Source: an uncultured Eubacteriales bacterium (GTDB lineage Bacteria > Bacillota > Clostridia > Oscillospirales > Ruminococcaceae). From it: a stretch of DNA of 64,000 nucleotides. The notes beneath the pieces are model-generated. The model ran no database searches. It had not been told where the DNA came from and worked only from the letters and a program-made list of their open reading frames with translations. The position numbers were made by a program, and so were the translations under genes. Positions 2,870 to 40,261 of the stretch are shown piece after piece (position 1 is the stretch's first letter; every line of letters begins with the position of its first letter). Location of the stretch: NCBI GenBank assembly GCA_900319075.1, contig ONMZ01000008.1:1-64000 (forward strand), given 5' to 3'.

Positions 2870-4075
2870 ATGAATATTGCAGTTGCACAATCCGGCGGTC
2901 CGACCAGTGCAATAAACGCCTCCCTTGCAGGTGTGGTAAAAGAGGCGCTGAGACATCCGGAGATCGAAAATATCTATGGTTCACTCAACGGTATCGAAGG
3001 GGTCTTGTCCCAAAGAATGGTAGATCTTAAACAAGCTTTGGCTTCACCGGAGGATATGGAGCTGCTGAGAGTTACTCCTTCAACAGCGCTTGGTTCCTGC
3101 CGATATAAGCTCCCCGATGCAGACAGCGGCAGCGAAGTATATAAGAAAATAGAGGAATGTTTTGAAAAATACAGTATCGGTGCCTTTTTCTATATAGGCG
3201 GCAACGATTCTATGGATACCGCAGCAAAGCTTTCAGACTATTTCAAGTCAAAGGGCATAAAGATAAAGGTGGTTGGCGTTCCCAAAACGATCGACAATGA
3301 TCTACCCGGCACGGATCATACTCCGGGCTTTGGAAGTGCTGCTAAGTATGTTGCAGCCACAATGTCGGAGATAATCTGTGACAGTTCGGTGTATGCCCTT
3401 GAATCTGTAACCATCGTTGAGGTAATGGGCAGACACGCCGGTTGGCTCACCGCATCTTGCTGTGTTCTCAGAGCGGCAGGAGAGTGTGCGCCGCATCTTA
3501 TCTATCTTCCTGAGTGTAGGTTTTCCGCACGGGACTTTATTGAGGATATAAAACAGCAGCAGAAAAAGCATAAAGCCGTTATCGTAGCTGTTTCCGAAGG
3601 GGTACGTCTTGAGGACAGCAACTGCCTTCGCAACGATAAACTTGACGTTTTCGGTCATCAGCAGCTTTCGGGAATAGGAAAGATCCTTGAGGATCTTGTG
3701 CGTGAGGAGATCGGCTGTAAAGTCCGTTCTATCGAGCTTAATGTAATGCAAAGATGCTCTGCACACATCTGTTCAAAAACGGATATTGATGAATCGGAAG
3801 CTATCGGAATGGAGGCTGTAAAAGCTGCCGTTATGGGCAACAGCGGTATAATGATGGTATTTAAGAGAGTTTCCGATGATCCGTACACGATCGAAATAGG
3901 CTGCGTTGATGCACACGAAACCGCTAACAAAGAACAGTTTTTCCCGGAAAAATGGATCAATGAAAGCCGCAATAACGTTACCGACGATGCAATCGGATAT
4001 TTTCTTCCACTTATTCAGGGAGAAATACCTGTTCCTATGAAAAACGGTATGCCGGTGCATTTTAAGATCAGATAA
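2870..4075 (+). CDS. pfp: PPi-type 6-phosphofructokinase
   Basis: Phosphorylates fructose 6-phosphate to the 1,6-bisphosphate, probably with pyrophosphate and thus reversibly. The 401-residue protein has the N-terminal AQSGGPT loop, GGNDS near residues 110-114 and PKTIDNDL near 138-145. The Asp/Asn after GG (rather than the GGDGS of ATP enzymes) and the Lys of PKT are marks of the PPi-dependent class. MGRHAGW at 186-192 binds substrate. The ATG at 2870 follows AGGTGA with 5-base spacing and is preferred over GTG 2861. It is monocistronic with its own promoter and terminator. Confidence 0.88.
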   Translation: MNIAVAQSGGPTSAINASLAGVVKEALRHPEIENIYGSLNGIEGVLSQRMVDLKQALASPEDMELLRVTPSTALGSCRYKLPDADSGSEVYKKIEECFEKYSIGAFFYIGGNDSMDTAAKLSDYFKSKGIKIKVVGVPKTIDNDLPGTDHTPGFGSAAKYVAATMSEIICDSSVYALESVTIVEVMGRHAGWLTASCCVLRAAGECAPHLIYLPECRFSARDFIEDIKQQQKKHKAVIVAVSEGVRLEDSNCLRNDKLDVFGHQQLSGIGKILEDLVREEIGCKVRSIELNVMQRCSAHICSKTDIDESEAIGMEAVKAAVMGNSGIMMVFKRVSDDPYTIEIGCVDAHETANKEQFFPEKWINESRNNVTDDAIGYFLPLIQGEIPVPMKNGMPVHFKIR

Positions 4076-4081
4076 GTAAAA

Positions 4082-4122
4082 AAGGCTTACTGTACAATAA
4101 AACGTACAGCAAGCCTTATTTT
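4082..4122 (+). terminator. Terminator after pfp
   Basis: Imperfect hairpin with arms AAGGCTT-A-CTGTAC and GTACAG-CA-AGCCTT followed by ATTTT. It overlaps the leader of the next gene. Confidence 0.6.
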
Positions 4123-4135
4123 GAGAGGACTAATT

Positions 4136-4930
4136 ATGAAGCAAAAACTTGTTTTTCTTGACATTGACGGAACGCTTGTTGATAAGCTTGAAACGATACA
4201 CCCATCAACGGTAAAAGCTCTGGAGCTTGCCCGGGAAAACGGACACAGGCTGTTTATAAGTTCCGGCAGATACAAAGGCATCGTGCCTAAATGCCTTGCT
4301 CCGCTTCACCTTGATGACGGAGTTTTTGCCGCAGGTGCCAATGTCTTTTGTGACGGCAAGGTGATCTTTGAAAGTAATTTCGAGCCGCATATCTACGACA
4401 GGATAATCGCTTCGCTGAAAGAGCATAAGGCTTTGATAGTCGCTGAGACCCTGGAAAGTGAAATGCTCCTGGGTGAAAACTGGCGCAGTGAGTTTGAGGG
4501 AACGAAAAGGTGGATACTCAGCCTTGGCGGAAGTTTTGTACAGCAGGCGCCCAAAAGCCTTTCCACAGTCGGAAAGTTTGTCTATAAGTCAGCCGACTGT
4601 ACAAACCGGCAGCTGCAAAGTGAGCTTGGGGACATCTGTAACGTCGTCACCCTCACTTATCCCGATTCGTCCGCAGGCGGCGAAATAATGCAGCTTGGGG
4701 TAAATAAGTCCCTTGGCATAAAAAAGGTTCTTGAATATTTCGGAGGGGATATTGCAGATACCATTGCGATAGGCGACGGCTGCAACGATATTGAAATGCT
4801 TGACCTGTGTGCAACCGGCGTGGCTATGGGCAACGCATCGGAAATTGTAAAAGCGCACGCAGACATTATCACCGACAGGATAGACAACGACGGACTGTAT
4901 AAAGCATTTGAAACACTGGGACTTATATGA
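4136..4930 (+). CDS. Cof-type HAD phosphatase
   Basis: A 264-residue haloacid-dehalogenase hydrolase of the Cof/IIB type. DIDGT at residues 9-13 carries the nucleophile and acid-base aspartates, SSGR is motif II, and the C-terminal GDGCNDIEML contains the Mg-binding aspartates. The cap domain between about 85 and 190 is of the Cof size. Substrates of such enzymes are usually sugar phosphates or flavin phosphates, but nothing here fixes one. The start at ATG 4136 follows AGAGGA. It is convergent with the cotJ operon, with a shared hairpin at 4934. Confidence 0.85.
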   Translation: MKQKLVFLDIDGTLVDKLETIHPSTVKALELARENGHRLFISSGRYKGIVPKCLAPLHLDDGVFAAGANVFCDGKVIFESNFEPHIYDRIIASLKEHKALIVAETLESEMLLGENWRSEFEGTKRWILSLGGSFVQQAPKSLSTVGKFVYKSADCTNRQLQSELGDICNVVTLTYPDSSAGGEIMQLGVNKSLGIKKVLEYFGGDIADTIAIGDGCNDIEMLDLCATGVAMGNASEIVKAHADIITDRIDNDGLYKAFETLGLI

Positions 4931-4933
4931 ATT

Positions 4934-4975
4934 ATCGGGGGAGCCCTTAAAGCAAGGACTTCCCCCGATTTTTTA
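4934..4975. terminator. Bidirectional terminator between the HAD gene and cotJC
   Basis: Arms ATCGGGGGA and TCCCCCGAT, with CCTT/AAGG extending the stem inward, followed by TTTTTT. It lies between two convergent genes. Confidence 0.75.
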
Positions 4976-4985
4976 TTTAACAAGA

Positions 4986-5582
4986 TTATTTGTCAAAGCT
5001 TGGGTTGAAAGCGTAGAAATTCTTTGAGTCAAGCATATCTTGCACCATGCGCTGTGCCTCTCCGAAGCGCTGGAAGTGGACTATCTCCCTTGCACGCAGG
5101 AACTTTATCGGGTCACGTACATCGGGGTCGTCTGCAAGGCGAAGAATGTTGTCGTAGGTCAATCTTGCCTTCTGCTCAGCGGCAAGATCCTCGCTGAGGT
5201 CTGCAAGTGCGTCGCCTGTGCTCTGGAAGGTCGCCGCCGTGAACGGTACGCCCGATGCAGCGATAGGATAAACGCCTGTGGTGTGGTCAACAAAGTACAC
5301 GTCAAAGCCGCTTTCTTTTATCTCTTTCATGGAGAGATTTCTTGTCAGCTGATAAAGGATAGTGCCTATCATCTCCATGTGGGAAAGCTCCTCCGTGCCG
5401 ATGTCCGAAAGCACCGCCTGCACCTCACGGCATGGCGCAGCGTATCTCTGGTTGAGGTATCTAAGCGCCGCTCCCAGCTCACCGTCAGGACCGCCGAGCT
5501 GGCTCACGATGACCTTTGCCAGGGCAGGATTCGGGTTCTTGATGTTTACAGGGTACTGTAATTTCTTTTCATATTGCCACAT
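4986..5582 (-). CDS. cotJC: Spore coat manganese-catalase protein CotJC
   Basis: A 198-residue protein of the manganese catalase family found in the inner spore coat. The four-helix di-manganese core is visible: Glu in GPDGELGAALRY, then EELSHME, Glu in DLAAEQKAR and REIVHFQRFGE supply Glu/His ligands. It is the last gene of the cotJA-B-C operon and overlaps cotJB by one base. Expression in the mother cell under sigma-E is expected from the family; the promoter upstream of cotJA is not clear in this sequence. It presumably removes peroxide during sporulation or coats the spore. Confidence 0.92.
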   Translation of the reverse strand: MWQYEKKLQYPVNIKNPNPALAKVIVSQLGGPDGELGAALRYLNQRYAAPCREVQAVLSDIGTEELSHMEMIGTILYQLTRNLSMKEIKESGFDVYFVDHTTGVYPIAASGVPFTAATFQSTGDALADLSEDLAAEQKARLTYDNILRLADDPDVRDPIKFLRAREIVHFQRFGEAQRMVQDMLDSKNFYAFNPSFDK

Positions 5583-5845
5583 CAGCTCTCACCCCTTTCC
5601 CATGGGAACGGGGTAGTTACCCAGCCCCACTTTTTCTCGGTGCTTGACTGTCCGACTTTGATAGGACCGTACTTCTCTGCGTATTTTTCCATAAGCTCGT
5701 CATACTCTTTCTTGTGCTGTTCAAAATATTTCAGACCCATAGGGCAGGTGGGGTGGCTGTCAAGGTAAAGATTTGCCTCCACAAGGGCAAAAGATTCCTG
5801 CTGGATCTTACGCATAAGCTGCTGCTTTTCATTTAAGATCGGCAT
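5582..5845 (-). CDS. cotJB: Spore coat protein CotJB
   Basis: An 87-residue CotJB-family protein with the typical helical start (NEKQQLMRKIQQESFAL), LYLDSHPT and the C-terminal tryptophan-rich WGWVTTPFPWE. Its start overlaps the end of cotJA by 17 bases and its stop overlaps the cotJC start, indicating translational coupling. It acts with CotJA in assembling CotJC into the coat. Confidence 0.9.
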   Translation of the reverse strand: MPILNEKQQLMRKIQQESFALVEANLYLDSHPTCPMGLKYFEQHKKEYDELMEKYAEKYGPIKVGQSSTEKKWGWVTTPFPWERGES

Positions 5846-6080
5846 TTTTCACAGCCTCCTCTCCTATAAACGGCTTGTCGAGCGACTTAAATATCGTCCC
5901 TCGCTGTAAAGCTACGTCCTGCTCGTAGGGCGTTTCCCAGACCTGATAGGGTACATATGCCATAGCAAGCGGTGTATCCGCCGGAAAAGCCCCAACGGGC
6001 ATGGGGCAGGCTTTAACGCCGCAGTCTTTATCAGGATTTTTGCCGAAAAGTTCAAAGAAAACTTCTTGTTCGTTTGCCAA
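5829..6080 (-). CDS. cotJA: Spore coat-associated protein CotJA
   Basis: An 83-residue CotJA-family protein, recognised by PLAMAYVPYQ and ALQRGTIFKSLDKPF. I place the start at a TTG (6080) because a perfect AAGGAGG ends seven bases before it. The longer ATG frame starting at 6110 has no convincing ribosome site and would contain that AAGGAGG inside the gene. It is the first gene of the cotJ operon. A CATAGGAT box lies near 6120 on the minus strand and could be a weak sigma-E -10, but its -35 is poor. Confidence 0.88.
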   Translation of the reverse strand: MANEQEVFFELFGKNPDKDCGVKACPMPVGAFPADTPLAMAYVPYQVWETPYEQDVALQRGTIFKSLDKPFIGEEAVKNADLK

Positions 6081-6268
6081 ACTGATTCCTCCTTGTTGGT
6101 ATAAAGCCATAGGCTTTGTCTTATCCTATGCAGCACCCGGGCAAGATGTCACCCTAAAGACCCTAAGGGGGAGTCAGTTGACATATGTTAACTTTGCACA
6201 AAAACAACGTTTTATTTTTGTCAAATACGTAAAAATGCAAGAAATTATTAAAAATATGCTACAAAAAC

Positions 6269-6297
6269 TTGAAATTCTTTGTCGAAAATGCTATAAT
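6269..6297 (+). promoter_or_regulatory. Sigma-A promoter abutting an ATG
   Basis: TTGAAA and TATAAT with a 17-base spacer. The expected transcription start (about 6304) coincides with the ATG at 6303, so a transcript would be leaderless or start inside the gene. Confidence 0.65.
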
Positions 6298-6302
6298 ATA
6301 CA

Positions 6303-6737
6303 ATGTATAAGCAGCAGCACCAAGCAGACTGTATGGAGATCTACAGCCAAATGTTTGATCTTTACCGCTCTAACTCTGACTTAAAGATGCTGAAACAATT
6401 TGCGGTCGCCGATAAGTTCAAGCTCAACAATTGTATGGCGGACAGCCTTGATAAAAGTGTTGTTATCTCTCCAGACGGGAAGCTGCACCGCTGCGAGCAT
6501 CTTCCCGGCAACGACAAGTCCTGGGGAAATATCCGTGACGGCGTGACCGATCAAGCCTTGCTGGATCAGATGATGCAGCCTGCACAGGTTAATGAAAAGT
6601 GCCGCAGCTGCGCCTATTTGTCCATATGCACACCGCTTTATAAGTCCTATTGTCCCGGCTGCTTTGATAATTGCGCTCAGTTTCAGCAGATGAAAACCAT
6701 GTATTACCTCAAAAAGCTGATACAAGCCGAAAATTAA
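6303..6737 (+). pseudogene. Orphan SPASM-type C-terminal fragment
   Basis: A 144-residue frame that looks like the C-terminal auxiliary-cluster (SPASM) domain of a radical SAM peptide-maturation enzyme. Cysteines lie at about 44, 64, 100, 103, 109, 117, 120 and 124 in the CxxCxxxxxC and CxxCxxxC spacing used to hold Fe-S clusters. The radical SAM barrel with its CxxxCxxC motif is missing and is not found upstream. A good promoter abuts its ATG and no ribosome site is present. It may be a remnant or a free-standing cluster protein; I favour a remnant. It follows the divergent cotJ operon and precedes livJ. Confidence 0.55.
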
Positions 6738-6850
6738 GCCGAGTAATACACTTTACCCACCATTGTTTAAAGATATAACACTATAAAGCTTTAATGTGTA
6801 AAATAACCAATTATTGCTTGGCTATGTATGTAAGTTTGTTCTTTTTGACC

Positions 6851-6880
6851 TTGACAAAGTCCGTAAATAGGTGTTATATT
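6851..6880 (+). promoter_or_regulatory. Sigma-A promoter of livJ
   Basis: TTGACA and TATATT with an 18-base spacer, about 55 bases before the livJ start. A short GACC...GGTC inverted repeat lies just downstream and could be an operator. Confidence 0.6.
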
Positions 6881-6934
6881 AGTAATGACCAGTAGTAACC
6901 GGTCTTTTTAAGTATATGAAGGAGTGAATTGAAA

Positions 6935-8125
6935 ATGAAATTGGCTAAGAAGATCATGGCACTTTCACTTGCAGCTGTTATGGCTGGTTCCTGCCTGACT
7001 GCCTGCGGCGATTCAAGTAAAGCTGACGGCAAGGGCGGCGACGAGAATACTCTTGTTATCGGCGGAAGCGGACCACTCACAGGCGATGCTGCACAGTACG
7101 GCGTCGGCGTAAAGAACGCTGCACAGCTTGCAGTTGATGAGATCAACGATGCAGGCGGAGTAAACGGTGTGAAATTTAAGCTCGTTTTTGAAGATGATGA
7201 GGCTGATAAGGGCGATAAGGCTGTAAATGCGTACAACGCACTTAAAGATAAGGGTATGCAGGTAATGCTTGGTACTGTTACCACCGGTTCCTGCCTTGCT
7301 GTTATCGACAAGACAAAGCAGGATAACGTTTTCCAGATTACACCTTCTGCATCCGCTCAGGACGTTATCAAAAACGATAATACATTCCAGATCTGTTTCA
7401 CAGACCCTAACCAGGGTAAAGCATCTGCTGACTATATTGCCCAGAACAATATAGCAAAGAAGATCGCTGTTATCTATGACAGCTCTGACGCTTATTCTTC
7501 CGGTATTTTCAATACCTTTAAGAGCGAGGCTTCCGAAAAGGGCCTTGAGATCGTTGCAGAGCAGTCCTTCACAAGTGATTCAAAGACTGACTTCTCCGCA
7601 CAGATCACAGCTGCAAAGAACGCAGATGCAGAGCTTTTGTTCCTGCCTATCTATTATCAGCAGGCATCTCTTATCCTTGCACAGTGCAAGTCCGCAGGTT
7701 TTGCTCCTAAGTTCTTCGGCTGCGATGGACTGGACGGAATACTTGACGTTGACAACTTTGATAAATCTCTTGCAGAGGGCGTAATGCTTCTTACTCCGTT
7801 TGCAGCTGACGCTTCCGATGATGCTACACAGAAGTTTGTAAAGGCATATAAGGAAAAGTATAATAACGAAACTCCAAACCAGTTTGCAGCTGATGCTTAT
7901 GACGGCATCAAGATCATCGCAAAGCTGGTGGAGAAGGAAGGCATCAAGGGCAACATGAGCACAAGCGATATCTGCGATAAGCTCAAAAAAGCTATCAGCA
8001 GCGATGACTTCAGCTACGACGGTCTTACCGGTGTAAACATGAAGTGGGGCGCAGATGGCGCAGTTTCCAAAAATCCAAAGGCTGTTGTTATAAAGGATGG
8101 CGCATACAGCGCACTTGATAAATAA
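6935..8125 (+). CDS. livJ: Branched-chain amino-acid ABC transporter substrate-binding lipoprotein
   Basis: A 396-residue lipoprotein with a lysine-rich signal peptide and the lipobox LTAC (Cys 24), so it is anchored outside the membrane. The mature part is a type I periplasmic-binding fold of the Leu/Ile/Val family (IGGSGPLTGDAAQYG, then DDEADKGDKAVNAY). It delivers leucine, isoleucine, valine or related ligands to LivHMGF encoded downstream. The start at ATG 6935 follows AAGGAGTGA with ideal spacing. A terminator at 8143 separates it from livH, which has its own promoter, allowing the binding protein to be made in excess. Confidence 0.92.
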   Translation: MKLAKKIMALSLAAVMAGSCLTACGDSSKADGKGGDENTLVIGGSGPLTGDAAQYGVGVKNAAQLAVDEINDAGGVNGVKFKLVFEDDEADKGDKAVNAYNALKDKGMQVMLGTVTTGSCLAVIDKTKQDNVFQITPSASAQDVIKNDNTFQICFTDPNQGKASADYIAQNNIAKKIAVIYDSSDAYSSGIFNTFKSEASEKGLEIVAEQSFTSDSKTDFSAQITAAKNADAELLFLPIYYQQASLILAQCKSAGFAPKFFGCDGLDGILDVDNFDKSLAEGVMLLTPFAADASDDATQKFVKAYKEKYNNETPNQFAADAYDGIKIIAKLVEKEGIKGNMSTSDICDKLKKAISSDDFSYDGLTGVNMKWGADGAVSKNPKAVVIKDGAYSALDK

Positions 8126-8142
8126 CATAAGTCAATAATACG

Positions 8143-8175
8143 GACCGACAGTTTTGCTGCTGTCGGTCTTTTTTA
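8143..8175 (+). terminator. Terminator between livJ and livH
   Basis: Nine-base arms GACCGACAG and CTGTCGGTC followed by TTTTTTA. It probably attenuates read-through from livJ into livHMGF. Confidence 0.8.
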
Positions 8176-8206
8176 TGTAAAAAAAACCTTTTTTTAGGTT
8201 TTTGTG

Positions 8207-8235
8207 TTGCAAATGGGATCGAGATGTGATATAAT
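8207..8235 (+). promoter_or_regulatory. Sigma-A promoter of livHMGF
   Basis: TTGCAA and TATAAT with a 17-base spacer, about 70 bases before the livH ATG. Confidence 0.65.
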
Positions 8236-8308
8236 AAATAAAGATTGCGCCATGTTATATGTTGATCTGAGTGCAATGATCCAAAAATTATGGAAGGAAG
8301 TTTGTTCT

Positions 8309-9190
8309 ATGGCTTTTCTTGAGACTCTGATAAACGGAATAAGTCTTGGAAGTATTTATGCAGTTATCGCTTTGGGTTATACTCTTGTTTACGGAATTGC
8401 AAAAATGCTGAATTTTGCCCACGGAGATGTAATAATGGTCGGAGGATATGCTGTGTTTACCGCCATGGTAACATGGAACTGGTCACCCTGGCTGGCAATG
8501 CTTTTTGCGATCGTTGTTTGTACTTTGCTTGGTATAACGATAGAAAAGGTGGCTTATAAACCTCTCAGAAAAGCCAGCAGCCTGTCTGTGCTTATCACAG
8601 CCATAGGCGTAAGCTATTTTCTGCAGAATATGGCTTTGCTTATTTTCAAAGAGAAGCCAAAGGTGTTTACTTCCGTTGTCAATATCCCAAAGATCAGCCT
8701 TTTCGACGGAAAGGTTGTCATCAAGGGCGAAACAACAGCTGCTATAATTACATCTGTTGTTATTGTTGTGGCACTTTCCATTTTTATCAACCATACGCAA
8801 AAGGGAAGAGCAATGCTTGCGGTCTCTGAAGATAAAGATGCAGCACAGCTTATGGGTATCAATGTTAACAGTACTATATCCCTGACCTTTGCTATCGGTT
8901 CCGGACTTGCCGCAGTGGCAGGTATGCTCCTTTGCTCCTCTTACCCAACCCTTACAAATACCACAGGCGCAATGCCGGGTATAAAGGCTTTTGTTGCAGC
9001 CGTTTTCGGAGGCATAGGATCTATCCCCGGCGCAATGATCGGCGGTATCCTTATCGGTGTTATCGAGATACTCGGCAGAGCCTATATATCTCCTCAGCTT
9101 GCAGATGCCATTGTTTTTGCGGTGCTGATTTTGGTGCTTATGATAAAGCCTACCGGTATTCTGGGTAAGAAAATAAACGAAAAGGTCTGA
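8309..9190 (+). CDS. livH: Branched-chain amino-acid ABC permease LivH
   Basis: A 293-residue multi-helix permease of the LivH type, which pairs with LivM to form the membrane channel. The N-terminus LINGISLGSIYAVIALGYTL and the inner motif GMLNFAHGD-like KMLNFAHGD are family hallmarks; the EAA-like cytoplasmic loop (AVSEDKDAAQLMGIN) contacts the ATPases. The frame is open further upstream, but the ATG at 8309 follows GGAAGGAAG with eight-base spacing and matches the family start. It is the first gene of livHMGF. Confidence 0.92.
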   Translation: MAFLETLINGISLGSIYAVIALGYTLVYGIAKMLNFAHGDVIMVGGYAVFTAMVTWNWSPWLAMLFAIVVCTLLGITIEKVAYKPLRKASSLSVLITAIGVSYFLQNMALLIFKEKPKVFTSVVNIPKISLFDGKVVIKGETTAAIITSVVIVVALSIFINHTQKGRAMLAVSEDKDAAQLMGINVNSTISLTFAIGSGLAAVAGMLLCSSYPTLTNTTGAMPGIKAFVAAVFGGIGSIPGAMIGGILIGVIEILGRAYISPQLADAIVFAVLILVLMIKPTGILGKKINEKV

Positions 9191-9232
9191 TAGAACTATA
9201 CAGCCTGAATTTATGGAAAGGATCGATCAAGT

Positions 9233-10318
9233 GTGAAGAAAAAGATCAAACCGATGACTAAAAAAAGCTTTATTACATACGGCTTGGTGCTCATCGCTTT
9301 TGTGGCTGTGGAGATTCTTATCTCAACAGGTAATATATCAAGTATGCTCAAGGGTCTGCTTGTTCCCATATGTGTTTATTCTATCCTTGCTGTGTCCCTT
9401 AACCTTACGGTTGGTATCCTTGGAGAGCTCAGCCTCGGACAGGCAGGTTTTATGTGCATAGGTGCATATTCAAGTGCTATCTTTTCAAATATGGTAAAGG
9501 AGACCATCACCGAGCCGATGATAAGATTCCCCCTGGCTATATTGGTGGGCGGCATATTTGCAGCACTTTTTGGTATTATCATCGGAATACCGGTGCTCAG
9601 GCTCCGTGGTGACTACCTGGCTATCGTTACACTTGCCTTTGGCGAGATAATCAAAAATGTGTTTGCAGCCCTTTATATCGGCTACGACAGCGCCGGACTG
9701 CATATCTCCTTGAAAAGCCAGGGCGATTTGGGACTTGCGCCCGATGGAAAAATGATAATAAACGGTGCGCTGGGTATAAGCGGCACCCCGAACGATTCAA
9801 CCTTTGAGATAGCCGCCGTAATTTTGTTTATTACTCTTATAATAGCATATAATTTTGTTAATTCCCGCACCGGAAGAGCAGTAATGTCTATAAGAGATAA
9901 CCGTATTGCTGCCGAGTCCGTAGGACTTAATATTACCAAGTACAAGCTTATGACTTTTGCCCTTACAGCCTTTTTGGCAGGCGTTGCGGGCGTGCTTTAT
10001 TCTCATAATTTCTACTCTCTGCAAGCGTCTAAGTTTGATTATAACCTTTCTATTCTTGTGCTGGTGTTCGTTGTGCTTGGAGGCATCGGAAATATACGTG
10101 GAAGCGTTATTGCCGCAATAATCCTTACAATGCTCCCGGAACTCCTCAGAAGCATAAACAACTACCGTATGCTTATGTATGCTATCGTTCTTATTGTAAT
10201 GATGATATGCACTTCAAACGAAACCATAAGGTCCTTCTTTGTTCGTAATATAGAAAAGTTCAAAGGGCTTTTCAAAAAGAATAAAGCACAGTCTGATGTG
10301 GTAAAGGAGGGTGAATAA
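9233..10318 (+). CDS. livM: Branched-chain amino-acid ABC permease LivM
   Basis: A 361-residue membrane protein, partner of LivH. It shows the LivM core (SLNLTVGILGELSLGQAGF), the GIPVLRLRGDYLAIVTLAFGE segment and the coupling loop AVMSIRDNRIAAESVG. The start is GTG 9233, ten bases after AAAGGA; a later ATG would remove conserved residues. It overlaps nothing and ends two bases before the livG ATG. Confidence 0.92.
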   Translation: MKKKIKPMTKKSFITYGLVLIAFVAVEILISTGNISSMLKGLLVPICVYSILAVSLNLTVGILGELSLGQAGFMCIGAYSSAIFSNMVKETITEPMIRFPLAILVGGIFAALFGIIIGIPVLRLRGDYLAIVTLAFGEIIKNVFAALYIGYDSAGLHISLKSQGDLGLAPDGKMIINGALGISGTPNDSTFEIAAVILFITLIIAYNFVNSRTGRAVMSIRDNRIAAESVGLNITKYKLMTFALTAFLAGVAGVLYSHNFYSLQASKFDYNLSILVLVFVVLGGIGNIRGSVIAAIILTMLPELLRSINNYRMLMYAIVLIVMMICTSNETIRSFFVRNIEKFKGLFKKNKAQSDVVKEGE

Positions 10319-10319
10319 T

Positions 10320-11078
10320 ATGGCTCTTCTTGATGTTAAAAAGCTGGGCATATCCTTTGGCGGTCTGCGTGCAGTTGATGAGTTTTCTATTAAGATCGAA
10401 AAAGGCGAGCTTTACGGACTTATCGGACCCAACGGTGCAGGTAAAACCACCGTGTTCAACCTTCTGACCGGTGTTTATAAGCCCACCGATGGATCTATTG
10501 TCCTTGACGGCGTGGATATTACCGGGAAAAACACAATACAGATAAACCATGCAGGTATTGCAAGAACCTTCCAGAATATCAGACTTTTCAATAACCTGAG
10601 CGTTATTGACAACGTCAAGGTGGGATTGCATAATAAATATAAGTATTCAGCTGCAACAGGCGTATTTCGTCTGCCAAAGTTTTTCAGGACCGAAAGGAAA
10701 ATGGATAAAAAAGCCCTTGAGCTCCTAAAGGTCTTTGACCTTGAAAATGAGGCGTATCTTCCCGCTTCGGGACTGCCATACGGCAAACAAAGAAAGCTGG
10801 AGATCGCAAGGGCACTGGCTACCGACCCAAAGCTTCTGCTTCTGGACGAGCCAGCTGCCGGTATGAATCCAAACGAAACAGCTGAACTTATGAATACTAT
10901 TAAGGCGGTAAGAGACGAGTTTGATATGACTGTGCTGCTTATCGAGCATGATATGAGCCTTGTTTCAGGCATCTGCGAAAAACTGTCGGTGCTTAACTTC
11001 GGACAGCTCCTTTGTCAGGGCAAAACCGGCGAGGTGCTTTCAAACCCCGAGGTCATTACCGCATATCTTGGAGAATAA
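10320..11078 (+). CDS. livG: Branched-chain amino-acid ABC ATPase LivG
   Basis: A 252-residue cytoplasmic ATPase. Walker A is GPNGAGKTT, the signature region reads LPYGKQRKLEIARALA, Walker B is LLLLDEPAAGMN and the switch histidine follows in LIEHDMSL. It pairs with LivF to power the importer. ATG 10320 follows AAAGGAGG that lies within the last codons of livM, showing tight coupling. Confidence 0.93.
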   Translation: MALLDVKKLGISFGGLRAVDEFSIKIEKGELYGLIGPNGAGKTTVFNLLTGVYKPTDGSIVLDGVDITGKNTIQINHAGIARTFQNIRLFNNLSVIDNVKVGLHNKYKYSAATGVFRLPKFFRTERKMDKKALELLKVFDLENEAYLPASGLPYGKQRKLEIARALATDPKLLLLDEPAAGMNPNETAELMNTIKAVRDEFDMTVLLIEHDMSLVSGICEKLSVLNFGQLLCQGKTGEVLSNPEVITAYLGE

Positions 11079-11091
11079 GGAGGGCGATAAA

Positions 11092-11802
11092 ATGGCAATG
11101 CTTGAGATAAAAGATCTTTGTGTCAATTACGGCGTTATCAAAGCCCTCAAGGGTATAACGTTTGAGGTCAATGAAGGGGAGGTCATCGCCCTTATCGGTG
11201 CAAACGGTGCAGGAAAAACCACAACGCTGCATACAATAACCGGACTTCTCAATGCCAGGTCCGGCTCTATTGTCCTTGACGGGAAGGATATAACAAAAAC
11301 CCCTGCCCATAAGATAGTGAAAATGGGTATTGCCCATGTTCCCGAGGGCAGGCGTATATTTCAAAACCTTACCGTGCTTGATAATATCCGCCTTGGAGCA
11401 TTTACAAGAAAAGATAAAGACGGTATAGCACAGGATGTTGAAAAAGTATATAAGCTTTTCCCAAGACTTGAAGAGAGAAAAAATCAGGTCGCCGGCACCC
11501 TTTCCGGTGGCGAGCAGCAGATGCTTGCAATGGGCAGAGCGCTGATGTCAAAACCAAGGATCGTGGTAATGGATGAGCCCTCAATGGGTCTTTCCCCGAT
11601 ACTTGTAAGCGAGATATTTGATATAATACAGTCCATAAGACAGCAGGGAACGACCGTGCTGCTTGTGGAACAGAACGCTAAAAAAGCCCTGTCTATCGCT
11701 GATAGAGCGTATGTTCTTGAAACAGGAAAGATAGTGCTTTCCGGCAAGGCTTCGGATCTTATAAATGATGAGTCTGTCAAAAAGGCTTATCTTGGAGAGT
11801 AG
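11092..11802 (+). CDS. livF: Branched-chain amino-acid ABC ATPase LivF
   Basis: A 236-residue ATPase with Walker A GANGAGKTT, signature LSGGEQQMLAMGRAL, Walker B IVVMDEPSMGLSP and LVEQNAKKAL, typical of LivF. The start at ATG 11092 follows AAGGAGG. The next gene begins ten bases downstream, so the kinase-like gene is likely in the same transcript. Confidence 0.93.
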   Translation: MAMLEIKDLCVNYGVIKALKGITFEVNEGEVIALIGANGAGKTTTLHTITGLLNARSGSIVLDGKDITKTPAHKIVKMGIAHVPEGRRIFQNLTVLDNIRLGAFTRKDKDGIAQDVEKVYKLFPRLEERKNQVAGTLSGGEQQMLAMGRALMSKPRIVVMDEPSMGLSPILVSEIFDIIQSIRQQGTTVLLVEQNAKKALSIADRAYVLETGKIVLSGKASDLINDESVKKAYLGE

Positions 11803-34792: not shown

Positions 34793-34865
34793 GCTGTTAT
34801 AGCTCAGTTGGTAGAGCACATCCTTGGTAAGGATGAGGTCACCGGTTCAAATCCGGTTAACAGCT
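34793..34865 (+). tRNA. tRNA-Thr (GGT), integration site
   Basis: A 73-base cloverleaf with GCTGTTA/TAACAGC acceptor and anticodon loop TTGGTAA (GGT). Its 3' half, from the anticodon loop on, is repeated at 40219-40261, so the incoming element restored the intact tRNA at its left end. The native terminator now lies beyond the right end (40267). Confidence 0.95.
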
Positions 34866-34866
34866 T
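34824..34866 (+). repeat. attL core of the integrated element
   Basis: The left copy of a perfect 43-bp direct repeat that spans the anticodon loop to the 3' end of tRNA-Thr. Confidence 0.92.
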
Positions 34867-34946
34867 ATTATTTTTATTCAAGAAAAGTCCGATTTTACGC
34901 ATTTTGCGTGATGTCGGATATTTTTGTATAATTATGTAAATTCAAA

Positions 34947-34969
34947 TTTTGTCCTTTATTTGTCCTTTA
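34947..34969 (+). repeat. Left arm-type integrase repeat
   Basis: A 23-bp sequence made of two TTTGTCCTTTA units in tandem, 81 bases inside attL. It is identical to 40079-40101 and in the same orientation, so probably bound by the integrase N-terminal arm domain. Confidence 0.7.
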
Positions 34970-35022
34970 TTGAGTAAAAAACAGCATATTTTCGCACAGA
35001 ATACAAAGAAAGCAGGCTGATC

Positions 35023-36243
35023 TTATGCCTGCTTTTTTTCTTTGTTTGATGTCGATGTTATGAGCATATCCTGCAAGATGTTAGCACTTTCTTCATCAGC
35101 TTCAGCAATATAATGCAGATACTTGTTTGTTGTGGATATATCACCGTGTCCAAGCCTGCCTTGAACCTGTCGGAGACTTGCACCGCCATATAACAAGAGT
35201 GTAGCCGATGTGTGCCTGAGACTGTGAAACTTTCTGTGCTTCAAGCCGTTCCTGTCAAGAAAGTCACTAAACCACTTTGTAGGCGTTATCGGGTGCATAA
35301 TAGATCCGTCAACTTTCGTGAATAACCATTCGTCACCATTCCAAGCCGTTCCTGCACGTTCCTTTTCCTTTTCTTTCTCTTTCTCTAATTCTTGTATAAG
35401 TTCTATGCAGTAAGGGGAGACGGTAACGGATCTTATTTCGAAGTCTTTGGGAGGTTTAGTGCTTATAGGCTGCCCTTTTAGCTGCATAGCTGATCGTTCT
35501 ATTCTGATCCTGTGCGTGTTATAGTCTATATCGCTAAACTTTAAAGCTACCAATTCTCCACGCCGTGCACCTGTCATTATAGCGAGGTTGATAAGTACTT
35601 GATACTGTAACGGCTCTTTTTCAAGGCATTGGAGCATTTGTGCGGCTTCCTGCTTTGTGAAGATCTCAACGGACGGCTTTGTTGCTTTTGGTATTATGAG
35701 CTTTGATGATTGTGCAGGGCTTTCGGGAATGACTTGTAATTTGACCGCCATATTGAGCACAGATTTAACAATATTGAGGTATCTACGCACAGATGAGGGA
35801 GAAAGGGTAGTTTCTATATGCTTGCATTTGCCGTTCTTAAATCCGTATTCTATCGGCTTTTCTGAAAGCGTTTTGATAAAAGATTGAATGTGCAAAGGTT
35901 TTATCTCAGAAAGCTTCAGATGTCCAAGCTCAGGAATGATATATTTCTTTAGTAGCCGTTCGTAATACTGGTATGTCTGAGGGGAAAGGGAAGGTTTGAC
36001 TAAATCAAGGTATTGAGGTACAAACTCAGCAAAGGTCAGGCGTGGGTTGTTGCTCATAAGACCGTTTTTGCACCGTTCCTCAAATTCAACAATGACCTTG
36101 TTAAGTTCCTTTTCTGTCTGTTTTGCAGTCATCGGCTTATCGGGCTTCCAAGTCATCGAGTGCGTGATCTGTTTACCGTTTACATCATATCCGCCGCTGA
36201 CACGAATGTTGTAAGTGTTTCCTCTTTTACGTATAGTAGCCAT
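35023..36243 (-). CDS. int: Tyrosine recombinase integrase
   Basis: A 406-residue site-specific recombinase of the Tn916/ICE-phage type. The N-terminal arm-binding region (RKRGNTYNIRVSGGYDVNGKQ) is followed by the SAM-like core-binding domain (FAEFVPQYLDLVKPSLSPQTYQYYERLL, quoted in part: LSPQTYQYYE) and the catalytic domain with Arg in TGARRGELVAL, HSLRHTSA, LGHGDISTT and the nucleophile in NKYLHY. It should integrate and, with the Xis-like protein, excise the element. Its start follows the xre stop directly (TAAATG). Confidence 0.93.
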   Translation of the reverse strand: MATIRKRGNTYNIRVSGGYDVNGKQITHSMTWKPDKPMTAKQTEKELNKVIVEFEERCKNGLMSNNPRLTFAEFVPQYLDLVKPSLSPQTYQYYERLLKKYIIPELGHLKLSEIKPLHIQSFIKTLSEKPIEYGFKNGKCKHIETTLSPSSVRRYLNIVKSVLNMAVKLQVIPESPAQSSKLIIPKATKPSVEIFTKQEAAQMLQCLEKEPLQYQVLINLAIMTGARRGELVALKFSDIDYNTHRIRIERSAMQLKGQPISTKPPKDFEIRSVTVSPYCIELIQELEKEKEKEKERAGTAWNGDEWLFTKVDGSIMHPITPTKWFSDFLDRNGLKHRKFHSLRHTSATLLLYGGASLRQVQGRLGHGDISTTNKYLHYIAEADEESANILQDMLITSTSNKEKKQA

Positions 36244-36954
36244 TTAATCACCTTCTTTTGTGTATCCGTTGTATTTGTCCTTTATCGTATCAAAGATTTC
36301 TTTTAATTCAGACTCATATTTCAATTTCATTGCAAGGTATTCTTTTTTATGCACAACACGTTCATCATATTCATTGATTATATTAATTAAAGCTTCCATA
36401 AGTCTGACTTTATCAACATCACAGATATTATTTAAGCTTTGAAATGAATGACGGTCAAATCTATGTTTATCGTCGCTATCACCATTATTATTTATAAGAG
36501 AACAGCTATTTAGCGAAAGGTCTGTAACTGATTTTGCAATTTCCTGAATAAATTCATTTTCAATCAAAGCACTTAAATACAGATAACTTCCGCCTAAATG
36601 TCTCCCGTCGAGATAAATGATATCCTGGTGTGTGAGGTAAAAATCATGTAACTTTTCAAGAGCTTTTTCGCTCAGTCCTGTGTATTCACTCATTTTTGAA
36701 AGTTCAACATCTTTTACAGTTGTGTGCCCAGTTAGATAGTCAAGCGAACAATGAAAGTGCTCTTGATAAAGATTGATTTGTGCAATAGTTGGGGGAGTTA
36801 TCTCATTTTCTATTTTAGAGATTGACGAAAATGACATAGGAATTGTTTTTTGAAACTCTCTTACCGATTTTCCTTCACTTTCTCTTAGCTTTCGCCAATT
36901 ATCACCATATACACCTTCAACAAACTTTAATCGTTCCTGCACTCTATTTGCCAT
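36244..36954 (-). CDS. XRE-family repressor of the element
   Basis: A 236-residue protein with an N-terminal helix-turn-helix (WRKLRESEGKSVREFQK, SFSSISKIENEITPP) and DYLTGH motif typical of phage-type repressors. The long C-terminal part (about 150 residues, helical) is of unknown fold and could be an oligomerisation or sensor domain, as in satellite Stl repressors. It is divergent from the Cro-like gene across a 190-base control region with repeated GAAACA boxes, and co-transcribed with int. Confidence 0.85.
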   Translation of the reverse strand: MANRVQERLKFVEGVYGDNWRKLRESEGKSVREFQKTIPMSFSSISKIENEITPPTIAQINLYQEHFHCSLDYLTGHTTVKDVELSKMSEYTGLSEKALEKLHDFYLTHQDIIYLDGRHLGGSYLYLSALIENEFIQEIAKSVTDLSLNSCSLINNNGDSDDKHRFDRHSFQSLNNICDVDKVRLMEALINIINEYDERVVHKKEYLAMKLKYESELKEIFDTIKDKYNGYTKEGD

Positions 36955-36971
36955 ATCTACACCCCTTTTTT

Positions 36972-37084
36972 AGAAACAACTTGAAGAAAATAATAGCTTT
37001 GTTTATTTATTGGAAACACTATTGACTTTGTTTCTGATATATGATATTCTAACAAAAGAAACAACACCAACAAATGTTTCTAAT
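36972..37084. promoter_or_regulatory. Control region with repeated operator half-sites
   Basis: GAAACA or its complement occurs five times: about 36973, 37013, 37029, 37059 and 37075. Two of these form an inverted pair, TTGTTTCT at 37029 and AGAAACAA at 37058. A rightward promoter, TTGACT-N17-TATTCT at 37022-37050, is embedded among them. The layout fits a lysogeny-type switch controlled by the XRE protein. Confidence 0.6.
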
Positions 37085-37144
37085 ACCAATATACCACTAT
37101 TTGTTGATGTTGTCAAGCACTATTTCGAGAAAGGGGGTGCAGAT

Positions 37145-37324
37145 ATGCAGGGCTTTGAGATCAAAGAGTTTATTCACCGTAACGGCGTTAAGCTGTGGCA
37201 GGTCGCTGATGCTTTGAGTATGACGGACGGGAATTTCAGCCGCCGACTGCGAAAGCCGTTCAGCAAAGCAGAATTCAGGCGAATTGAAGAAATCGTTGAA
37301 AAAATACTTGCTGAACAGGAATGA
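37145..37324 (+). CDS. Small Cro-like helix-turn-helix protein
   Basis: A 59-residue protein. GVKLWQVADALSMTDGNFSRRLRKPFSKAEF reads as a helix-turn-helix (quoted in part: WQVADALSMTDGNFSRRL). ATG 37145 follows AAAGGGGG; the longer frame from 37010 overlaps the promoter. As the first rightward gene it is a candidate anti-repressor or early regulator. Confidence 0.7.
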   Translation: MQGFEIKEFIHRNGVKLWQVADALSMTDGNFSRRLRKPFSKAEFRRIEEIVEKILAEQE

Positions 37325-37466
37325 ACAAAAAAACCGCCTGAGCGTTGCAGCGTTCAAGCGGTGTGCAGGGGTAAGCCCTGCGAGTATACGGCGAAAAACA
37401 CGATAAATGCTTTTCAAGCTCATTCTATCATAGATAAGCGAGCCTGTCAAGCGGAAAGGGAACAAA

Positions 37467-37646
37467 ATGAAAACTATGTTGACGATTAAAGAGGCGGCTG
37501 AAAAATACGGGCTTCCTGTCTTTTGGGTGCGGTGTGCAGTCAAGCAGCACAAAGTCCCATTCATCACTTTAGGTCGAAAAATCTTAATCAATGGCGAGAT
37601 TTTTGAGGCATTCTTGAAAGGCGGTGCACCTGATGAGCAGGCTTGA
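37467..37646 (+). CDS. Excisionase-like DNA-binding protein
   Basis: A 59-residue protein with the excisionase/MerR-type winged helix: LTIKEAAEKYGLPVFWVRCAV, followed by VPFITLGRKILINGEIFEAFL. Such proteins bend DNA to favour excision by a tyrosine integrase. It is preceded by GGAAAGGG and overlaps the next gene. The short frame is easy to miss. Confidence 0.75.
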   Translation: MKTMLTIKEAAEKYGLPVFWVRCAVKQHKVPFITLGRKILINGEIFEAFLKGGAPDEQA

Positions 37647-37914
37647 TAAGCAGATACTCAGTTTGCTTCCAACGGGTGCAGATGATCCAATTACCGCAGC
37701 CGAGCTGAAAAACCTGTGCGGCGTAACACGGGTGCGTGACATTACTTTTGCAATTCATCTGCTCAGGAAGCAAGGACAGGTCATACTCAGCAACGGACAG
37801 GGCTATTTTAAGCCTGCCGATAAGCAAGAGATCAGATCATTCGTAAGAACGATGAGATCGAGACAACGTGAGATCGCTGAAGCTACACGCTCAGCAGTTA
37901 AAGCTTTGAAATGA
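37633..37914 (+). CDS. Winged-helix protein of the element
   Basis: A 93-residue protein. The order LDKQILSLLP, ITAAELKNLCGVTRVRDITFAIHLLRKQG and VILSNGQGYFKPA is that of a winged helix-turn-helix. Similar small proteins are found in early regions of Firmicute phages and islands. ATG 37633 follows AAAGGCGG with seven-base spacing; the GTG at 37624 lacks one. It overlaps the Xis-like gene by 14 bases. Confidence 0.7.
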   Translation: MSRLDKQILSLLPTGADDPITAAELKNLCGVTRVRDITFAIHLLRKQGQVILSNGQGYFKPADKQEIRSFVRTMRSRQREIAEATRSAVKALK

Positions 37915-37924
37915 GGGATAAATA

Positions 37925-38327
37925 ATGGACAATATCGATAGCACAATAAAGACACCGCCGGGATTTTACCTTTACCAACTCCCACAAAACTTACTCAAAA
38001 GCTGCACCGATGAAGAAGCAGGACAGATAATCAAGGCAGCTATTCAGTTCTTTGAGAGCGGTGAGATAACAAATAATCTTGACCGTTTGCCCGATATGGT
38101 GTATCAAATCATTATTTCTGATATTGCTGTCGGCAAAGACAAATATCTGAAACGGTGTGAGCAAAACAGAAAAAATCGAAACAGCAAAACGAATAGTGAC
38201 GAATAAAACTATTCGTCACTTACCGTTACCATTTGTCACTAATACTAATACCAACTCTAAGTCTAAACCTAACTCTATTATTAACTCCAATGAAAAGACA
38301 AATGATAAGCACAATGCTAAGTTGTAA
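37925..38327 (+). pseudogene. DUF6291-type phage protein, probably frameshifted
   Basis: The first frame (93 codons, stop at 38206) matches the short family DUF6291 found in phage replication regions: YLYQLPQNLLKSCTDEEAGQIIKAAIQFF and CEQNRKNRNSK. Members commonly continue into an Asn/Thr-rich tail. Just such a tail (TNTNTNSKSKPN) lies in another frame from about 38208 to the stop at 38327. A single indel near 38190-38210, beside an 11-bp inverted repeat, would join them. Alternatively the short form is functional. Confidence 0.6.
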
Positions 38328-38363
38328 GACAAATAGTAGAATGGTTCTTAAAGGAGAAATAAA

Positions 38364-38690
38364 ATGTTCGATGCAACTATATTTTCAAGAAATCTGTGGA
38401 AAGCATATTGTTCAAAACAGAGAAAAATGGAATTTATCGAAATACTTGATATTATTCTGTTCTTTCTGACATCTTATGAGCGATATATGGGAGAGGTACA
38501 TCCTAATGTCAAGACTAAACAGCTTGAAAGGATCGTTTCTGTAATTGATGAACAAGACATTGAACCGGAAGCTTATGATGTACTTATTACATCATACTTT
38601 GAAAACACAGCTTTACAGACAGATTTCAATATCAATCATTTTTTTACTGAGGGCATTATCAATAACAGGTTCTACGAGAAATTATACTAA
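38364..38690 (+). CDS. Hypothetical protein of the element
   Basis: A 108-residue acidic, helical protein with AAAGGAG before its ATG. MEFIEILDIILFFLTSYERYMGE is a hydrophobic helix pair but not clearly membrane-spanning. I recognise no family. It lies between the DUF6291-type and the 78-residue genes. Confidence 0.65.
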   Translation: MFDATIFSRNLWKAYCSKQRKMEFIEILDIILFFLTSYERYMGEVHPNVKTKQLERIVSVIDEQDIEPEAYDVLITSYFENTALQTDFNINHFFTEGIINNRFYEKLY

Positions 38691-38700
38691 GGGGGATTTT

Positions 38701-38937
38701 ATGAGAATAGCCAATTATAAGCTAACACCTGAAGATCGTGAAACACTTATAAACATCGTTAAGGACAATAACGGTGGAGAGGTTGCTGTCGTTGAAACCA
38801 CTGAGAGCAAGGTTTACAATAAGCTGATGAAACGAGGCTGGAGCTTGACCGATGAGGTGCGAAACATTCAGGGCGGTTTGCTATCGGCTACATTCAAAGC
38901 ACCTGCAAAGTGTGTCAGCTTCAGATCTATGCACTAA
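38701..38937 (+). CDS. Small hypothetical protein of the element
   Basis: A 78-residue protein starting 10 bases after its neighbour, with AAGGGGG at the correct distance. LTPEDRETLINIVKDNNGGEVAVVETTESKVYNKLMKRGW suggests a helix-strand-helix fold. No family is recognised; a 137-base AT-rich gap without visible features follows. Confidence 0.65.
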   Translation: MRIANYKLTPEDRETLINIVKDNNGGEVAVVETTESKVYNKLMKRGWSLTDEVRNIQGGLLSATFKAPAKCVSFRSMH

Positions 38938-39074
38938 ATGCAGTTTTAGACACGGCTTTGTATGGTGGTATGTTTATACTTACAATACATTTGCTATGTC
39001 AAAAACTGCGAGTGCTCAAAGATTTTAGGTACAAATCAAGCATTATTTTTCACAAATAGGGAGGGGGGAGATGA

Positions 39075-39476
39075 ATGGCAAAGAAATATACCGATGAAAG
39101 ATTGGCGGAGCTTTTAATGATACACGGCTCTGTATCGGCTGTTGCTTCCGCAACACGCTTAACACGGTCAACGCTGTATCAGAGGCTTAAAAGTCCGCAG
39201 TTTCGGAAAGTCTTTGAGGGTTACACACATTCGGCTTTGAATGCTGCGAGCTGTGAGCTGTCCTGTGCCTGCGGTACGGCGATACAAACGCTTGTATCGG
39301 TATGTAACGACGGAGAAATCAACGCACAAACACGTGTGCAAGCTGCACAAACGATACTGACAAACGCTGTTAAACTTGCAGATATAGCACGGGAGCAGCG
39401 TGAGCAGGACGAAAGAGACGAAAAAATTGAGGCTCTAACACAAAGCATTTTATCAAGAATGCACAACGAAGAATGA
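39075..39476 (+). CDS. TerS-like helix-turn-helix protein
   Basis: A 133-residue protein. Residues 5-45 form a homeodomain-like helix-turn-helix (LLMIHGSVSAVASATRLTRSTLYQRLKSPQF). The rest is helical and includes GEINAQTRVQAAQTILTNAVKLAD, a pattern found in small phage/island DNA-binding proteins related to the small terminase subunit. Satellites use such proteins to redirect helper packaging. No large terminase is present. The functional assignment is tentative; it could be a simple DNA-binding protein. Confidence 0.6.
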   Translation: MAKKYTDERLAELLMIHGSVSAVASATRLTRSTLYQRLKSPQFRKVFEGYTHSALNAASCELSCACGTAIQTLVSVCNDGEINAQTRVQAAQTILTNAVKLADIAREQREQDERDEKIEALTQSILSRMHNEE

Positions 39477-39491
39477 AAGGAACGAGAGAAA

Positions 39492-40052
39492 ATGACAAAA
39501 TCTGATTTTTACTGGGACATCAAAGCGACTGTTGATGAGGCAATCGCAGATATCGGGGAGCTTGAAGCCGAAAAGAAGAAACTTGAAAACGAGATGAAAA
39601 GCTCAAAATTTCAGCAGTCTTATATAAAAAAAGAAATGTTACCGATGATCGAGGGCAAAAAAAGGGATATTGAGGCAAGAAAGGCGGCGGCAAACAAGCA
39701 GATCAAAGCTCTTGCTGATAGCTATATAAGCGAGCTGAACGAGGCAAACGAGCTGCGAGGCGAGGCTCTAACGGACGATGTAAAATTGCTGACAGCAGGC
39801 GTTAATCTCACGGGGAATGAGCTTGAAAAGATATTTGACCGCTATGGAGACAATCCGACAATGCAGCAGATTGTGTATAGATACGCCGATGAACACGATA
39901 TCAAGCTTAACCGTGTGCTTACATTCAAAAATGCTCCGCTGATCGAGGCTGTATCTTGTACGCCTAAAATGTGCGAAACGGTGATTAAATGGGCGGGCGT
40001 TGACAACGTATACGATCAAGTGATGCCACGACTTGAATGCTTCAAGGAATGA
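39492..40052 (+). CDS. Coiled-coil protein at the right end of the element
   Basis: A 186-residue protein with a long charged coiled coil (residues about 12-85: ELEAEKKKLENEMK, KRDIEARKAAANKQI) and a C-terminal globular part of about 90 residues. AAAGGAACGAGAG precedes the ATG and a terminator follows its stop. No family is recognised; a capsid-scaffold or size-redirecting protein is one speculative option. Confidence 0.6.
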   Translation: MTKSDFYWDIKATVDEAIADIGELEAEKKKLENEMKSSKFQQSYIKKEMLPMIEGKKRDIEARKAAANKQIKALADSYISELNEANELRGEALTDDVKLLTAGVNLTGNELEKIFDRYGDNPTMQQIVYRYADEHDIKLNRVLTFKNAPLIEAVSCTPKMCETVIKWAGVDNVYDQVMPRLECFKE

Positions 40053-40057
40053 ACGAG

Positions 40058-40083
40058 AGACAGCCAAATGGCTGTCTTTTTTG
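40058..40083 (+). terminator. Terminator of the element's rightward operon
   Basis: Arms AGACAGCC and GGCTGTCT followed by six T residues, directly after the coiled-coil gene. Confidence 0.82.
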
Positions 40084-40101
40084 TCCTTTATTTGTCCTTT
40101 A
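40079..40101 (+). repeat. Right arm-type integrase repeat
   Basis: Identical to the 23-bp left arm repeat at 34947, same orientation, about 118 bases inside attR. Confidence 0.7.
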
Positions 40102-40218
40102 CTTTTTCTGAATACCTATAAAATGAAATTGACATCTATAAACACATAATGCGAGAATTATGCGTAAATACGAATAATTATAAATTGTTCTAAAAGGATA
40201 TGAAAGGCAAAAGTGACA

Positions 40219-40261
40219 TTGGTAAGGATGAGGTCACCGGTTCAAATCCGGTTAACAGCTT
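40219..40261 (+). repeat. attR core of the integrated element
   Basis: The right copy of the 43-bp tRNA-Thr 3' half. It lacks the 5' half, so it is not a tRNA gene. Confidence 0.92.

Follow-up and report, generated by a model that had tools for sequence, protein, structure and literature searches.

The question raised by the 64,000-nt stretch of Ruminococcaceae DNA analyzed here (positions 1 to 64,000 of contig ONMZ01000008.1, assembly GCA_900319075.1; hereafter the window) is what kind of element occupies its tRNA-Thr(GGT) gene, into which a 5.4-kb island (34824..40261) has been inserted. We consider it highly probable that the island is a minimal, primase-less phage satellite resembling the phage-inducible chromosomal islands (PICIs). 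The evidence that carries this reading comes from its ends and distribution, i.e. attachment-site (att) repeats with an empty counterpart in a relative, a sibling island of the same gene order in a tRNA-Leu gene and ten loci of the genus that combine an excisionase gene (xis) with an integrase gene (int); from relatives of its small terminase (TerS) and winged-helix-turn-helix-like (wHTH) proteins in known satellites, a TerS homologue near a phage large terminase (TerL) and a relative whose 8.39-kb circle, deposited as a faecal phage record, spans attP; and from siblings with other packaging genes, a protein (X1) that resembles the C-terminal part of helicase loaders, and the ratios of nonsynonymous to synonymous substitution (dN/dS) in the packaging genes.

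The target tRNA gene was located at 34793..34865 (+) by both ARAGORN and Rfam, and the att repeat on the int side (34824..34866, +), which consists of the last 42 bases of this gene plus the next base, recurs exactly at 40219..40261 (+) as the far end of the island; the two belong to a 47-nt family with one mismatch, exact over 43 bp and with a spacing of 5395. When the flanks of the island were joined by script, they aligned without a break to an empty site in the relative G008 (83.5% identity over 2217 columns spanning the junction), and the boundaries are therefore right. Repeats at both ends and an empty site also rule out that these genes are the end of a larger prophage or integrative and conjugative element. 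Ten genes lie between the repeats, int and the repressor gene xre leftward and the other eight rightward, and a hairpin followed by a T-run at about 40059-40084, read by eye, resembles a terminator. The original prediction, made from the sequence alone, is thus borne out in its island size and 43-bp repeats, in its plan of leftward int and xre and rightward Cro-like and Xis-like genes, each of which has family matches, and, as far as reading by eye goes, in its terminator. The window's own draft genome holds a single copy of the island, and a tRNA-Thr gene lies within about 0.8 kb of the aspartokinase gene at 5 of 27 aspartokinase loci scanned.

When the ten proteins were compared with Pfam, PHROGs and NCBIfam, no phage structural or lysis gene (capsid, portal, TerL, tail, lysis) was recognized, no primase or helicase, in keeping with the primase-less state already proposed, no conjugation or mobilization family, and, as far as these three libraries reach, no Abi_2, Fic or other defence family. 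The last of these results bears on the possibility that we are dealing mainly with a phage-interference or defence island whose small proteins block incoming phage and whose movement is secondary; larger siblings do carry Abi_2 and Fic genes, and interference is common in PICIs according to the available part of PMC6092414, but the missing defence families and the presence of relatives in several tRNA genes, which implies past movement, render this possibility very remote.

The same gene set occurs at another site in a related genome, and the original reading thereby withstands the refutation test set for it at the outset. Among 120 genomes, the coiled-coil protein encoded at the end of the island (coil) was found in two, the window's own and G010, the Ruminococcus metagenome-assembled genome (MAG) RUG13311, where a 5.0-kb island (L007) sits in tRNA-Leu(GAG) between ends that form a 75-nt repeat at 91%. 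Its gene order matches that of the window, with xis, wHTH (45% identity), DUF6291 (33%), X1 (33%), X2 (42%), TerS (87%) and coil (84%), and the two integrases are 31% identical. As DNA, positions 38935-40059 (leader, TerS, coil) are 89.5% identical between these otherwise diverged islands, which points to a recent exchange of the leader-TerS-coil cassette, as judged from sequence; the sole other DNA match in this comparison links the int of the window to a further integrase gene located downstream of L007. The latter gene and an xis-like open reading frame (ORF) lie directly past the island (L007:6820-8739) and are perhaps a tandem element.

This sibling also helps to judge whether the island might be what decay has left of a larger satellite or prophage, with its ends and a few genes kept and its mobility lost. 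Such decay would suit the small size and the lack of a recognized primase or helicase, does occur in the island family, as a truncated TerS ORF in the sibling L041 indicates, and would fit the lack of copies of coil and TerS in the IMG/VR collection. We nonetheless regard it as unlikely, given that both att repeats are exact, that the int, xre, xis, TerS and coil frames are all open, that paired 11-bp repeats are found at both ends, that L007 carries the same short gene set, and that dN/dS between the window and L007 is below 0.5 for both TerS (0.45) and coil (0.35).

The packaging end of the island bears on the satellite reading. The protein at 39075..39476 (+; 133 aa) matches phrog_2538 (E 1e-6) and phrog_7344 (E 1e-4), and in bajarodcaudo virus 2 its homologue is separated by one small gene, and by the point at which the circular record begins, from the large terminase that follows. 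With similarity to phage TerS and a homologue near terL in a phage, the protein is on sequence grounds a TerS relative, as had been suggested. Among 50,697 phage records, six matched the window TerS, four of them streptococcal satellites, and 18 matched the wHTH protein (14 streptococcal satellites, three faecal scaffolds and one streptococcal phage); these are raw counts with no enrichment value, since the number of satellites in the collection is not known. The window TerS found no match among plasmid records.

A different interpretation would make the island an integrative element that is not packaged at all, its TerS-like gene being a DNA-binding regulator and its movement being due to the integrase together with conjugation or chance transduction. 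The modest TerS scores, the helix-turn-helix that is common to many DNA-binding proteins, with weak families of this fold also listed among the Pfam matches of the 39075 protein, and the cargo-free plan would all agree with it. Against it stand the lack of any conjugation or mobilization family in the ten proteins scanned, the TerS homologue before TerL in bajarodcaudo virus 2, the siblings in which a comparable place is filled by a clear-cut TerS or a head-closure protein, and the relative that forms a circle in a faecal phage record, and we deem it decidedly improbable.

Upstream of terS, a conserved leader (38938..39074, +) is near-identical in L007 and folds with a z of -3.3 (0 of 200 shuffles were equally stable), so that it may be a pac or control site; in Rfam, tRNA was the only family to reach its gathering score. 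It is preceded by X2 (38701..38937, +; 78 aa), one of three proteins singled out earlier as unknown, which indeed has no family match in the three libraries and no assigned role, and which was seen only in the window, L007, L041 and L042. As a survey marker in 297 genomes of the family, X2 matched the window genome only; the X2-bearing G010 gave none and was presumably outside the draw.

Paired with TerS is the coil protein (39492..40052, +; 186 aa), whose position suggests a role in packaging. It has relatives in faecal scaffolds: a profile built from the window and L007 scored L138 at 12.7 bits (best of 200 shuffles 5.1), L010 at 8.4 (6.4) and L130 at 8.2 (7.4) and failed on L139 (1.6 bits, 14 of 200 shuffles as good), and the reverse profile from L010, L138 and L139 scored the window at 13.1 (best of 200 shuffles 6.5) and failed on L130 (79 shuffles as good). 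The coil protein itself had no match among phage records, and a 32% match in another MAG (L008) lies inside a larger, unrelated-looking protein and was taken as chance. The three faecal scaffolds merit description in their own right. L138 (MT836267.1, reverse complement, 1-11458) has a 124-bp terminal overlap that closes it to an 11,334-bp circle and encodes a TerS-like protein, TerL (Terminase_3, E 2e-34), a 148-aa protein, a coil-like protein, an integrase and an AAA_25/DnaB-like protein; no capsid or portal was recognized by eye, with Pfam applied to five of its 14 listed ORFs, and it is possibly a satellite with both terminase subunits. In L010 (MT837364.1, 50-6736), a 7.0-kb scaffold, a DnaB-like helicase, a sigma factor, TerS and a coil-like gene precede a 717-aa tape-measure protein, in a stretch without TerL, portal or capsid; the scaffold is either a fragment or a satellite with tail-length genes. 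L139 (MT837714.1, reverse complement, 1288-5303) carries a coil-like gene in a single run with DUF6291 (E 3e-29) and a sigma factor and is a likely family member.

The wider family was surveyed with the wHTH protein as marker, in genomes that include draft MAGs. With a wHTH profile of seven rows and E up to 1e-3, matches were obtained in 12 of the 29 genomes of the genus; ten matches in eight genomes (E of 2e-16 or better) were kept and five weak ones (E 6e-5 to 7e-4) dropped, which gave the window, L007, L035, L036, L037, L038, L039, L040, L041 and L042. At all ten loci xis adjoins wHTH and an integrase lies on the opposite strand. End repeats were found for the window, L007, L036, L039, L040 and L041, with sizes of 5.0-8.7 kb, and the search for exact att repeats returned none for L035, L037, L038, L042 (L038 and L042 run to contig ends) and L130, a locus from another genus. 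The sites used are tRNA-Thr (window, L038), tRNA-Leu (L007, L039, L040, L041) and tRNA-Met (L036); L038, the only occupant of tRNA-Thr met besides the window's island, has an integrase 75% identical to the window's and 42 of the 43 att bases.

Behind this constant front the remaining modules vary. The replication slot holds DUF6291 plus X1 (window, L007, L041, L042), DUF6291 (L035, L036, L040), DUF3987 (L038, L039) or a DnaD-like loader (L037), and the packaging slot holds a window-like TerS in the window, L007, L039 and L042, a 69-aa truncated ORF in L041, a Terminase_2 TerS in L037 (E 9e-19) and a Phage_HCP head-closure protein in L040 (2094-2441, -; E 6e-18), no packaging gene being recognized in that slot of L035, L036 and L038. 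As judged from their gene content, the siblings retain int, xis and wHTH while swapping replication and packaging modules, and with integration genes kept and packaging genes exchanged the choice of helper becomes testable gene by gene. The lone head-closure protein of L040, where no TerS was recognized, is perhaps an alternative means of taking over the helper particle. As cargo, bigger siblings carry the above-mentioned Abi_2 (L035:4520-5419, -) and Fic (L036:4845-5588, -) genes, and a sigma-70-like gene that may drive late genes lies downstream of the replication slot in L035, L036, L015, L123, L125, L128, L130, L132 and L136, the window and L007 being without it.

At the level of the bacterial family, wHTH matches were found in 85 of 297 genomes, many of them weak and many in ORFs of about 330 aa; the weak matches in such ORFs we take to be BirA-type repressors. 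From the remainder, long ORFs being left out, 20 strong places (E 3e-10 or better) were chosen and their contexts read with our own profiles: six have int and xis, three have an integrase or a fragment of one but no xis, and 11 have neither. Beyond the genus, L130, one of the six with int and xis, unites int, xis, wHTH, DUF6291, X1, TerS, a coil-like gene and a sigma factor.

One sign of mobility in this family is a relative, L015, on the faecal scaffold MT836843, which bears int, xre, xis, wHTH, a full-length DUF6291 protein and a sigma factor. The scaffold ends overlap by 124 bp and close to an 8,390-bp circle, within which the two ends of the corresponding island in G015, about 8.9 kb apart there, join at the tRNA-Leu att core, the aligned pieces being 92-98% identical. 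Its left end being without the tRNA part of the core, the G015 copy may lie in a secondary site. According to its record, MT836843 derives from human faecal samples from Mexico. The accessible part of a Mexican study (PMC8361208) describes filtration at 0.45 and 0.22 um, chloroform, DNase and assembly with k up to 125, a setting from which scaffold overlaps of 124 bp would result; the scaffold thus probably comes from that study and hence from DNase-treated particles. The attP-spanning junction could also be obtained from a tandem insertion.

How so short an element would replicate is suggested by the genes between wHTH and X2. A DUF6291 domain protein (37925..38206, +; 93 aa, E 9e-12), which matched four phage records with L015 among them, is followed by a linker (38207..38363) and by X1 (38364..38690, +; 108 aa). 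DUF6291 had originally been read as frameshifted, a poor description given that five further loci (L007, L041, L042, L075, L130) likewise have a short DUF6291 ORF and, after it, X1 as an ORF of its own, by which a frameshift is ruled out. X1, also among the proteins called unknown, proved less obscure than X2. Its profile found three relatives in IMG/VR (3 of 38 stretches): two form the C-terminal portions of larger proteins (278 and 283 aa) that match phrog_6493, a DnaD-like helicase loader, over their N-terminal portions (E 3e-53 and 1e-49), and the third, in L075, is again preceded by a short DUF6291; six X1 sequences align with twelve invariant columns. X1 had no match among phage records and chance-level matches only in the PDB. 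In view of its likeness to loader C-parts, DUF6291 and X1 together look like a split initiator/helicase loader. The linker is by position a candidate replication origin, and in L007 (19 bp x 3), L041, L042 and L075 its direct repeats were reached by 0 of 500 shuffles.

Taken as a satellite, the island would become active once a helper phage frees it from XRE repression; a circle would be excised by Int and Xis, and the split initiator would start replication near the DUF6291-X1 linker with helicase and primase borrowed from the host or the helper. TerS, possibly by way of the leader that precedes its gene, would then redirect the TerL of the helper to satellite DNA, with the coil protein aiding packaging, and at 5.4 kb packing would require either concatemers or very small heads.

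Several results weigh against this reading. For the window's copy we infer the helper, the excision and the packaging. The TerS family scores are modest, and when a seven-sequence TerS profile was compared with the PDB the best match, the small terminase 7joq, was weak (E 0.022). Scans of IMG/VR with coil and the window TerS returned no relatives; those with the wHTH profile A4, the L015 wHTH and the L042 TerS likewise returned none, the X1 profile alone giving matches. No repressor gene was recognized in L007 and no TerS in L015, and direct repeats in the window's DUF6291-X1 linker are within chance (34 of 500 shuffles as good). To judge by the 11 of 20 family-level places with neither int nor xis, the wHTH protein is not confined to satellites. 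Finally, a TerL (Terminase_3) cassette in the window's own genome (contig C30; L086:4050-11056), with about nine same-strand genes that look phage-head-like by eye between transporter and metabolic genes, has no similarity to the island beyond chance, and is for this reason no evidence of a helper.

Comparison with described satellites places the island close to, but not within, a known class. In the available part of PMC6092414, Gram-positive PICIs have int and a master repressor in one direction and xis and the rest in the other, with a primase homologue and an initiator followed by ori; they are typically around 15 kb, lack structural and lysis genes, use att sites never used by prophages, have genes of their own found only in PICIs, and show phage-dependent induction, interference and packaging. 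The island shares with them and with the Staphylococcus aureus pathogenicity islands the leftward int and repressor, the rightward xis and replication genes, an optional terS, an att site of its own and the lack of recognized structural or lysis genes, but differs in being 5.4 kb long and in having, in place of a recognized primase, DUF6291 and X1 as an apparently split initiator. As neither the primase module nor the usual size is found, we use the term PICI-like for it and stop short of calling it a PICI. Of the two possibilities offered at the outset, a satellite or a new class of element, the former stands, whereas the latter does not, the island belonging to a family that functions as PICIs do.

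The phage-inducible chromosomal minimalist islands (PICMIs) of Vibrionaceae, as presented in the available part of PMC10803314, have an int, alpA and prim core, integrate next to fis, carry neither terS nor capsid-remodelling genes and are packed as a concatemer; PICMI115, at 6,110 bp, is given there as the smallest satellite with characterized activity. The very small size, few genes and lack of capsid-remodelling genes are common to both, and concatemer packing is the likely answer for the island too, but the latter has a terS relative, a tRNA-Thr site and no recognized primase. Streptococcal satellite prophages (the Javan set; PMC6813308, available part) provide TerS relatives in four records and wHTH relatives in 14, with int leftward in those opened, which differ in measuring 8.2-10.0 kb, in being annotated in several cases with a primase, helicase or loader, and in sharing only about 26-36% identity. 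Both the window's island and L007 (5.0 kb) are smaller than PICMI115, and the former falls below the satellite range of 7-20 kb stated in the accessible text of PMC13376191. What a satellite may need would thereby be narrowed to no primase, no capsid genes and one TerS cassette, and PICI-like satellites would be placed in Ruminococcus, where we found none described in the open-access literature searched, partly by a very broad query.

A broader proposal, which we put forward tentatively and would not yet bet on, is that a widespread, unnoticed family of satellites of about 5-9 kb exists in Ruminococcus and its family, the smallest of which run on the split DUF6291-X1 loader-initiator with the origin between its genes and no primase or helicase of their own; packaging would be a swappable cassette (TerS plus coil, Terminase_2 TerS or head-closure protein), so that a change of cassette is a change of helper, and coil would act in satellite packaging or capsid assembly as a factor of a new kind.

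The integration and control genes complete the island. The tyrosine integrase (35023..36243, -; 406 aa, Phage_integrase E 7e-26) and the XRE-type repressor (36244..36954, -; 236 aa, HTH_3 E 1e-7) are its biggest ORFs; they are followed rightward by a Cro-like small protein (37145..37324, +; 59 aa), which matches the function-unknown phrog_17740 (E 1e-7) and has homologues at the equivalent position in sibling islands, the excisionase (37467..37646, +; 59 aa, HTH_17 E 3e-8, TIGR01764 E 5e-7) and the small wHTH family marker (37633..37914, +; phrog_2113 E 4e-12). The 11-bp word TTTGTCCTTTA has five exact copies in the window, all within the island: two stand in tandem inside either end (34948..34969, +, and 40080..40101, +), and the fifth lies near the int-xre boundary. 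Different 11-bp repeats occupy comparable positions in L007 and L040, and the comparison of end repeats gave a longer shared run in L015, single shared words only in L041, L039 and L036, and 9-mers only in L038; such paired end repeats resemble integrase arm sites and are probably just that. The integrases of L007 (1821-3185, -) and L015 (3495-4892, -) differ from the window's in an additional internal segment, which on visual inspection resembles an XRE-type helix-turn-helix.

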